Part shown: positions 39,743 through 42,139 of the stretch, in pieces | How the letters are laid out: each line of letters starts with the position of its first letter | How positions within the stretch are numbered: the first letter of the stretch is position 1 | DNA from: a virus | Virus record (IMG/VR): IMGVR_UViG_3300048687_000086 | Location: 1-42,139 of that record | DNA: 42,139 nt | Strand: one strand, 5' to 3' | Made by a program: the position numbers and the translations under genes | Notes under the pieces: model-generated | What the model was told of the DNA's origin: nothing | Databases searched by the model: none | What the model saw: the letters and a program-made list of their open reading frames with translations, nothing else

Positions 39743-39763
39743 ATCGTCATGTCTGGAGACCTG

Positions 39764-40684
39764 ATGGCCACACCTATGACCGCAGCGAGATTCCTGGCCG
39801 TGCTCCAGAGCGCCGGCCTTACCGTCGTGCAGGTGGGCGACTGGCGTACGCACAACCGCAACCACAAGGGCGCCTGGGGGCCGGTGCACGGGGTGATGCT
39901 CCACCACACCGTCACCACTGGTACGGCCCGCACTGTCGACATCTGCCAGCACGGATACAGTGCGCTGCCCGGCCCGCTCTGTCACGGCGTCATCGCGAAG
40001 GACGGCCGGGTCCACCTGGTCGGGTTCGGCCGCGCGAACCATGCGGGCCTGGGCGACGACGATGTCCTCCAGGCCGTGATCGCCGAGAAGACGCTGCCGG
40101 CGGACGACGAGTCGAACACCGATGGCAACCGGCACTTCTACGGGTTCGAGTGCGAGAACCTCGGCGATGGCAAGGACCCGTGGCCCGCGGCCCAGGTCGA
40201 CGCGATGGTCCGCGCCTCGGCCGCGATCTGCGCCGAGCACGGGTGGGGCGCGGAGTCCATCATCGGCCACCTCGAGTGGCAGCCCGGGAAGATCGACCCC
40301 AGGGGCCCCGGGTTCCCGGGCATGCCCGCGATGCGGGCACGGGTCGACGAGCGCCTGGACGACGAGCAGCCGCCGACCAAGCCCACCACCCCGGCCAAGC
40401 CTCCGGCCGCCAAGCCCCAGGCGCCGCCCTTCCCGGGGCGGACGTACTTCACGGTCGGTGCCCGCAACAAGTACGCGCTGCAGCTGCAGGGCTGGCTGCA
40501 CAAGGGCGGCTGGGGACCGGCGTACACCGTCGGCCCGTCGATGCTCATGACGCCCAAGGACCTCGAGAAGGTCCGCGCGCTGCAGCGCCACTACCTGTCC
40601 AAGCTCGGCCCCGCTGACGGCGGGGTCGGGCCGCTCACCTGGCAGTACGCGTTCGAGGTCGCCAACGGCCTCCGGAAGAAGTGA
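39764..40684 (+). CDS. Endolysin: N-acetylmuramoyl-L-alanine amidase with peptidoglycan-binding domain (306 aa)
   Basis: ATG at 39764 is preferred because GGAG precedes it; ATG 39749 is upstream. An Amidase_2/PGRP-type domain (about residues 25-195) has the zinc ligands His47 (VMLHHTV), His169 (GHLEW) and Asp178 (GKIDPRG). A Pro/Lys/Ala linker (200-222) leads to a C-terminal domain (225-306) with YALQLQGWLHKGGWGPAY, resembling a peptidoglycan-binding fold. It cleaves the amide between muramic acid and the stem peptide. No signal peptide is seen, so release needs the holin. Confidence 0.93.
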   Translation: MATPMTAARFLAVLQSAGLTVVQVGDWRTHNRNHKGAWGPVHGVMLHHTVTTGTARTVDICQHGYSALPGPLCHGVIAKDGRVHLVGFGRANHAGLGDDDVLQAVIAEKTLPADDESNTDGNRHFYGFECENLGDGKDPWPAAQVDAMVRASAAICAEHGWGAESIIGHLEWQPGKIDPRGPGFPGMPAMRARVDERLDDEQPPTKPTTPAKPPAAKPQAPPFPGRTYFTVGARNKYALQLQGWLHKGGWGPAYTVGPSMLMTPKDLEKVRALQRHYLSKLGPADGGVGPLTWQYAFEVANGLRKK

Positions 40685-40691
40685 GGACACC

Positions 40692-40934
40692 ATGAGCGAG
40701 CACAACGACGGCCAGGCGCTGCGGCACCCGGCTACGGAGCACCTGCTCCGTTTCTTCGAGCATGACCACCTGCCCGCCCACCTGCAGGCCGTGAGCGCCC
40801 CGTGCGGCGACCTCGCGCAGCAGATGGTGGCCGCGCTCCCGGATGGGCCGGAGCTGTCCGCCGGTCTCCGCCGGCTGCTCGAGGCGAAGGACTGCTTCGT
40901 GCGCGCCGCCCTCGACGCCCACCGCGAGGAGTAG
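40692..40934 (+). CDS. Small helical protein, Acb2/Tad1-like candidate (80 aa)
   Basis: ATG at 40692 with GTGAGGA upstream. The pattern FxxHLPxxLQxVSxP, then LAQQMVAALPDGPELSAGLR and RLLEAKDCFVRAAL matches, in my recollection, the helical hairpin of the Acb2/Tad1 family. Members of that family sequester cyclic nucleotides and block CBASS or Thoeris signalling. Homologues with the same spacing are common near lysis genes in actinophages, often with no assigned role. The evidence is motif resemblance only. Confidence 0.5.
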   Translation: MSEHNDGQALRHPATEHLLRFFEHDHLPAHLQAVSAPCGDLAQQMVAALPDGPELSAGLRRLLEAKDCFVRAALDAHREE

Positions 40935-40936
40935 TC

Positions 40937-41089
40937 GTGTCTGTGGACGCGGTGGTGCCTCCGATCCTCGCGCACCGGCTGTACGAGCCGGTGCCCCAGG
41001 AGGTGGTGCGCCAGTACCTCGAATCCCGTACGGCCGCCCCCAAGCTCCCGGCTACGTTCCGGGGCCCCAACTGGAAGAAGGACGCATGA
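40937..41089 (+). CDS. Small hypothetical protein in the lysis cassette (50 aa)
   Basis: GTG at 40937 with GAGGAG in the end of the previous gene. The product has VPPILAHRLYEPVPQEVVRQ and a basic GPNWKKDA end, with no membrane segment. Its stop overlaps the holin start (ATGA). Function unknown. Confidence 0.6.
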   Translation: MSVDAVVPPILAHRLYEPVPQEVVRQYLESRTAAPKLPATFRGPNWKKDA

Positions 41090-41307
41090 AGATCCCCGCT
41101 ATGGCCAAGAGCCTCGTGTCCGGCGTCGCGGCCGGAGCCACGGCCGCCGTCACCGCAGTACAGGACCAGGTCCTCACCACCGGCGAGACAGTCACGATCG
41201 TGCTCGCCGTCCTCGGCGCGTGGGGAATCACCTACGCCGTACCCAACCGGCCCGCCCAGGACGACGACCTGATGACCACCACGTACCGCGGACCGTCGGG
41301 CACCTGA
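41086..41307 (+). CDS. Holin candidate (73 aa)
   Basis: ATG at 41086 overlaps the previous stop. A basic N-terminus (MKIPAMAKS) is followed by two hydrophobic stretches (LVSGVAAGATAAVTAV, then TVTIVLAVLGAWGITYAV) and a polar tail. Size and two-span shape fit a small class II holin, close to the endolysin gene. Confidence 0.78.
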   Translation: MKIPAMAKSLVSGVAAGATAAVTAVQDQVLTTGETVTIVLAVLGAWGITYAVPNRPAQDDDLMTTTYRGPSGT

Positions 41308-41372: not shown

Positions 41373-41705
41373 GTGGACGCTGCGACGCTCGGCGCCGTTG
41401 GGGCCATCGTCGTCGGGCTCGCAACGGCCGCAGCCGCTCTGATCGGGCAGCGCACCAGCGCCCGGGCCACGCACCAGGGGGCCGTGATGACCGGCTACGG
41501 CGGCCTCGTCGACAACCTGCAGGAGGAACGCGACGCCCTGCGGACCGAGCGCGATGCGCTGCGGGCGGAGCTCGCCGCGGCATACGCCGAACTGACCGCT
41601 GAGCGCGCGGACAAGGCAGGCCTGCACACGCAGATCGCGCAGCTGCAGGCGGATATCGCCGACCGTGACCGACAGATCGCTGCCCTGGGAGGGCCGACAT
41701 CGTGA
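41373..41705 (+). CDS. Membrane-anchored coiled-coil protein (110 aa)
   Basis: GTG at 41373 with CAGGAGG upstream. An N-terminal membrane segment (ATLGAVGAIVVGLATAAAAL) leads to a long coiled coil (NLQEERDALRTERDALRAEL, then LHTQIAQLQADIADRDRQIA). It may act as a second holin, antiholin or envelope-spanning lysis factor. It overlaps the next GTG. Confidence 0.75.
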   Translation: MDAATLGAVGAIVVGLATAAAALIGQRTSARATHQGAVMTGYGGLVDNLQEERDALRTERDALRAELAAAYAELTAERADKAGLHTQIAQLQADIADRDRQIAALGGPTS

Positions 41706-42139
41706 CGACCCACACCGAGCCGAGGCACCGTGCTACGGGGATCCTGGCCAGGCGTTGGCGGTCGCTGGCCGTGACAGCTGTGCTGGCCATCTTGGCGGGG
41801 GCGATCGTCCTGGTGTGGCTGCGGATCGAGGCCGAGGCGGACCGCACTCTGCAGGTGGCGGCCGAGGCCGACCGGCGTGGGGCCGCGGTGTCCACGCTGG
41901 CCGGTGACGTACGGGTCCTGCGCGCTCAAATCCAGGCGAAGGGTGGGACGCCAGCGGCCCCGGACCCGGCGGCTGCGGTCGAGGACCTCCCGGACAGGGT
42001 CGAGGTGCCCGTGCCCATACCCGGCCCGGCAGGTCCTCGAGGACCGGCCGGGCAGGACGGGGAGACTGGCCCGCCCGGTCCCGCGGTGACCGGGCCACCC
42101 GGTGCTACCGGCGCGCCCGGGCCAGCCGTGACCGGTCCG
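41702..42139 (+). CDS. Membrane-anchored collagen-like protein, N-terminal part (continues at 1-368)
   Basis: GTG at 41702 overlaps the previous stop (GTGA). Basic residues precede one membrane helix (LAVTAVLAILAGAIVLVWL, about 22-40). A helical region (DRTLQVAAEADRRGAAVSTL) and then the Gly-X-Y collagen-like stretch begin before the circle junction. Joined across it the protein has 226 residues. The envelope-anchored, extended rod suggests it reaches through the cell wall during lysis or alters the surface. A tail fibre is less likely because of the membrane anchor. Confidence 0.85.
   Translation, partial: MTTHTEPRHRATGILARRWRSLAVTAVLAILAGAIVLVWLRIEAEADRTLQVAAEADRRGAAVSTLAGDVRVLRAQIQAKGGTPAAPDPAAAVEDLPDRVEVPVPIPGPAGPRGPAGQDGETGPPGPAVTGPPGATGAPGPAVTGP
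42015..42139. repeat. Terminal direct repeat (circle-closing overlap), right copy
   Basis: Right-hand copy of the 125-base overlap. It lies in the collagen-like Gly-X-Y coding region of the gene that starts at 41702. Confidence 0.95.

Follow-up and report, generated by a model that had tools for sequence, protein, structure and literature searches.

A distant relative of the Acb2/Tad1 hairpin proteins encoded behind a phage endolysin gene is a candidate counter-defence sponge

We analysed a 42,139-nucleotide stretch of viral DNA from a Streptomyces-type phage (IMG/VR record IMGVR_UViG_3300048687_000086, positions 1 to 42,139), here called the window. Behind its endolysin gene lies a small gene (40692-40934, plus strand) whose 80-residue product is, judging from family comparison and predicted structure, a helical-hairpin protein distantly related to the Acb2/Tad1 hairpin proteins. 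We consider it highly probable from sequence profiles that this protein is a distant homologue within the Acb2/Tad1 hairpin superfamily. That it acts as a sponge-type counter-defence protein is the reading we favour, and we hold it as probable, with less assurance than the homology.

The reading frame is intact from an ATG start to a TAG stop and begins 7 nt past the endolysin stop codon. Its leader (40679-40691, plus strand) overlaps the endolysin stop region and has a Shine-Dalgarno-like GAGG directly upstream of the ATG. The GC3 of the gene is 0.94 (94%), similar to that of the neighbouring genes. Compared with nine homologues, the frame gave dN/dS values of 0.13-0.33, indicating purifying selection; thus 40692-40934 is a gene under selection rather than an open frame that arose by chance.

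A preliminary description of the window had singled out the spacing HLPxxLQxVS...LAQQM...LPxGxE...LRRLLEAKD in the 80-residue product. The pattern is present and characterises a large, conserved family. By tblastn, homologues were found in 368 of 50,697 phage records, spread over hundreds of unrelated phages, including those of Vibrio, Mycobacterium, Erwinia, Acinetobacter, Brevibacterium, Gordonia and others, and the hosts of the phages that carry them (at least 368 records) belong to Actinomycetota, Pseudomonadota and other groups. Viral contigs held at least 587 homologous stretches on more than 500 contigs, and a genome scan found 78 bacterial loci in 78 genomes of many phyla. Nearly all of the sampled annotations read "hypothetical protein". 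A homologue in Ochrobactrum phage OH (L083, 765-1133) is annotated "anti-TRAP domain-containing"; it has a cysteine-type N-terminal domain, with a sub-threshold Anti-TRAP/DnaJ match, and the family hairpin at its C-terminus. By score, the window protein falls clearly within phrog_5120 (2.8e-32) and phrog_1761 (6.9e-30), two PHROG families listed as "unknown function", the latter with about 75 additional N-terminal residues relative to the window protein. In an alignment of 44 family sequences, F22, H26, A42, E54, R60, L62, E64, K66, D67, V70 and R71 are invariant. Among 151 diverse family sequences, E64, K66, D67 and V70 are kept at 100%, R71 and E54 at 99%, and R60 at 98%.

Used alone, the window protein had no match in Pfam, NCBIfam, PDB or PADLOC searches. 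An HMM search against the Acb2/Tad1 hairpin family, proposed in the preliminary description as a check of its idea, fails for the window protein, which has no match to PF24729 (Acb2_Tad1_hairpin, cut-off 27 bits). The best PF24729 score among 44 relatives was E 0.013, and the divergent relative L226 reached 13.6 bits, below the cut-off. The family profile by itself gave chance hits only in the PDB. T4 Acb2 and Pseudomonas Acb2 match each other by phmmer at E 0.026 only, which indicates that a single-sequence test is insensitive within the Acb2/Tad1 superfamily. One 281-kb jumbo-phage contig encodes, besides a family member (L043), another and different protein that matches PF24729 weakly (L082, 1234-1686; E 0.002 in the genome search and 0.019 by hmmscan). 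PF24729 hairpins in several Paenibacillus phages (L295, 1-186; H73, H82 and H89) carry the annotation "(putative) phosphomannomutase", apparently in error.

Homology was accepted only once deeper alignments of hairpin-only PF24729 proteins were used. Against a reference set of 15 hairpin-only phage proteins (A2; 15/15 match PF24729), the family gave E 2.2e-6 with 89% probability by hhalign. Deeper alignments gave E 1e-6 and a score of 34.0, with probabilities of 89-91% over the comparisons. The highest scores of the shuffled controls were 18.6 for 300 column shuffles and 24.7 for 200 seven-column block shuffles, which preserve the local helix pattern. Unrelated families scored up to 11 compared to 27-35 for the real pairs, a weak control of five families only. 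A second hairpin set taken from viral contigs only (A3) matched the family at E 1.2e-5 and the Acb2 alignments at E 1.3e-9, and the PDB hits of its profile were "Acb2 homolog 43" (9PTQ, 1.3e-6) and Tad1 (about 5e-4). The family also matched the printed 9PTQ segment at E 3.4e-4, exceeding 300 shuffles. Another PHROG family, phrog_1454, serves as a bridge, since it matches a PF24729 hairpin (2.4e-22), T4 Acb2 (7e-4) and relative L226 (3e-4). Weak matches to phrog_1454 were found for 26 of the 44 family members (best 3e-4), compared to 3 of 44 for the next unrelated PHROG. HMMER, hhalign and MAFFT gave an identical alignment register.

Direct hhalign comparison of the family with Acb2 (T4 Vs.4 and p26) was not significant (probability 0.15-2.4%); against small Acb2-only alignments it was again not significant, and shuffles reached equal scores. 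The link to Acb2 runs through the hairpin-only PF24729 proteins. On these alignments the relationship is real but distant, and the hairpin-only PF24729 branch is nearest. Like the family, the hairpin-only PF24729 proteins, including 9PTQ, have about 60-80 residues, an F-x-Y/aromatic element ahead of helix 1, helix 1 itself, an LP(D/E)G-x-E turn and a helix 2 with L..LEEA. Helix 1 is about one turn shorter in the family. The segment SREKSLAxTxLEEAxMWANA of the PF24729 hairpins is replaced by GPELTAGLRKLLEAKDCFVRAAL in the family, whose score is far under the Pfam cut-off. Common to the family and the Acb2/Tad1 hairpins are F-x-aromatic and then LP(D/E)G-x-E...L..L/E-E-A. The kinship that the preliminary description had read from the spacing of the motifs therefore stands as distant homology, carried by the profile-profile comparisons, the phrog_1454 bridge and the fold neighbours described below, but the HLPxxLQxVS part is private to the family.

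AlphaFold on the family alignment gave a pLDDT of 90.9 with helices at residues 13-20, 29-48 and 53-79, a model that predicts one short helix and a two-helix antiparallel hairpin. Acb2 is laid out as one short helix and two long antiparallel helices (PMC12043709), and the helix layout of its structures (T4 Vs.4, PDB 7UQ2; Pseudomonas phage p26, PDB 8H2J and 8IXZ) resembles that of the model of the window protein, with a much shorter helix 1-helix 2 loop in the window protein. In a Foldseek search of viral models (BFVD), the top hits were family members. Next came proteins that carry the name "Acb2/Tad1 hairpin domain-containing"; these nearest named neighbours outside the family had probability 1.00 and E values of 0.08-0.12, followed by several more. 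No Acb2 or Tad1 was listed when the model of the window protein was compared with the PDB. As a positive control, a bona fide PF24729 hairpin was put through this search; Tad1 and Vs.4 took ranks 1-3, at E values of only 0.4-0.9, so the absence of Acb2 from the PDB fold search carries little weight.

Amphipathic helices might have converged on this likeness in an unrelated helical hairpin. Such an origin would agree with the missing PF24729 match of the single sequence, the failed direct comparison with Acb2 and the PDB fold hits without Acb2. We regard it as improbable, since the real scores lie above the 300 column-shuffled and 200 block-shuffled controls, three programs agree on the register, and the fold neighbours are Acb2/Tad1 hairpins.

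We then compared the positions that contact the ligand in known proteins with those of the family, which appears homologous to them. For Acb2 the comparison covered the cyclic-dinucleotide site, with Tyr8/Tyr11, F82 (T4), the lysine of helix 1 and T68. The Y8A mutant of T4 Acb2 loses binding (PMC12657218, PMC12657230). The Tyr8 column corresponds to residue 24; about 92% of the family have Tyr, Phe, Trp or His there, and the window protein has His24. The helix-1 lysine of the Acb2 ligand site, which we take to be K26 in Pseudomonas p26 numbering, falls in a column that has Ser35 in the window protein and Ser in 90% of the family. T68M weakens T4 Acb2 binding (PMC12657230), and the T68 column holds the invariant Arg60 in the family. 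F82 of Acb2 stacks on the base (PMC12657218), and its column holds Leu74 in the window protein; in the Arg79 column the arginine is kept (Arg71). Because the candidate pocket appears rebuilt, the ligand cannot be read from the alignment. The C-terminal hairpin of Tad1 (PDB 7UAV) belongs to the same superfamily, as the A3 profile matches Tad1 chains, but the N-terminal beta-sheet domain of Tad1 is absent from the window protein, which is all-helical in the model. Neither similarity at the Acb2 level nor the Tad1 beta domain was found when we looked for them; thus the window protein should not be filed as either. Related actinophage hairpins have been annotated as Acb2 by others, namely Statler gp57 (PMC13348362) and those of Xandras and BigBubba (PMC11953737). 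That the window protein works like Acb2 is still the best hypothesis.

The upstream neighbour of the gene (39749-40684, plus strand) encodes the endolysin, an N-acetylmuramoyl-L-alanine amidase (Amidase_2, Pfam PF01510, E 1.5e-21). Its DNA is 77-80% identical over about 500 bases to endolysins of Streptomyces phages, and the closest DNA relatives of the window in the phage collection, all Streptomyces phages, match part of the endolysin gene only. Downstream are a 50-residue frame with a GTG start (40937-41089, plus strand; GC3 0.88) and a putative small membrane protein of 73 residues (41086-41307, plus strand), a holin candidate by its hydrophobic stretch and position; neither has a Pfam match. 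A further frame at 41702-42139, cut off by the end of the window, encodes an N-terminus that resembles a membrane anchor, and it has G-P-x repeats like those of collagen. With an amidase upstream and a putative membrane protein downstream, the lysis-cassette location given in the preliminary description is fair for this window; in other phages the homologues mostly lie elsewhere.

The surroundings of the homologues bear on whether the gene is a lysis-cassette accessory, that is, a small helical protein that would regulate holin or endolysin, such as an antiholin-like or lysis-timing protein. The gene follows the amidase gene both here and in close relatives of the window, and lysis genes are neighbours in Gordonia phage Jumbo, where the homologue lies between two lysin A genes, and in Brevibacterium phage AGM1, where it is next to the holin. 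Other homologues follow head-tail genes (Gordonia phage Ruthy) or lie between head genes (Acinetobacter phage Ab105-2), near the major capsid gene (Vibrio phage 1.237.B), among minor tail genes (Gustav) or in early or replication regions (Reynauld and Erwinia phage SNUABM_16). Their presence in head, tail and early modules shows that the position between endolysin and holin, which the preliminary description took as frequent in actinophages, is not general. The homologues of the head, tail and early modules carry the same invariant residues, which argues against a lysis regulator, as do the lack of a membrane segment in the 80-residue protein and its homology to sponge hairpins. Positions scattered over head, tail and early modules as well as lysis modules suit an accessory gene more than a regulator of lysis. 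We rejected the latter role on genomic context and give it very little chance.

A helical hairpin is a simple fold, and function is not proved by homology alone. Under the sponge reading, the gene product would be a standalone hairpin protein from a separate and widespread branch of the Acb2/Tad1 superfamily that the Pfam model misses. In this phage its expression would come late, together with that of the lysis and structural genes, and it would most likely assemble into a small ring, probably a hexamer. We infer that the ring would sequester a cyclic-nucleotide-type second messenger of host defence (CBASS, Thoeris, type III CRISPR or similar), and with the messenger sequestered the defence effector would not be triggered. 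The pocket may have been rebuilt on the family-specific invariant residues Arg60, Lys66, Asp67, Arg71, Glu54 and Glu64 together with His26 and Phe22, and its preferred ligand may then differ from those of the characterised Acb2 and Tad1.

The same superfamily could also have supplied a module that serves oligomerisation, or the binding of a housekeeping nucleotide or a partner protein, with no part in counter-defence. In keeping with such a module, several known ligand residues are not kept, the invariant charged residues could form structural ion pairs rather than a pocket, and some phages have the hairpin joined to a further domain (prohead protease in L188, Multi_ubiq in L017). However, the characterised phage proteins of this fold, Acb2 and Tad1, are immune-signal sponges (PMC12043709, PMC12657218), and the scattered single-gene distribution suits an accessory anti-defence gene. 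We therefore judge a role outside defence to be unlikely and retain the sponge as the preferred reading.

The fusions are described here in their own right. In a Rhodococcoides fascians prophage (L188, 4992-6866), one continuous frame joins the hairpin to a prohead serine protease and capsid protein (matches to Peptidase_S78 and Phage_capsid_4), and no start codon lies between the hairpin and the protease/capsid part; L141 and L217 have the same kind of extension. On one viral contig (L017, 5010-5447), the family hairpin is followed by a multiubiquitin domain at the C-terminus (PF14452, E 6e-7, a match that passes the cut-off). Type II CBASS employs ubiquitin-like conjugation, which makes this fusion striking. 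It is the only clear case found; apparent second and third multiubiquitin fusions (Mahdia and L451) span separate frames and were rejected.

Should the family members act as sponges, counter-defence of this type would reach considerably further than is now known, and the gap in automatic annotation would be explained, as Pfam misses this branch. The altered pocket would offer a direct route to new defence signals, above all in Streptomyces and Mycobacterium relatives, and for guards that sense sponges, such as Panoptes, the family would be a candidate trigger. More tentatively, and with odds that we put clearly against it, the family could be a separate sponge branch whose rebuilt pocket (R60, K66, D67, R71 and H26) takes a signal that is not handled by the characterised Acb2, Tad1, Tad2 and Acb4. 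If so, a bacterial defence signal or system would exist that has not yet been matched to a phage antagonist.
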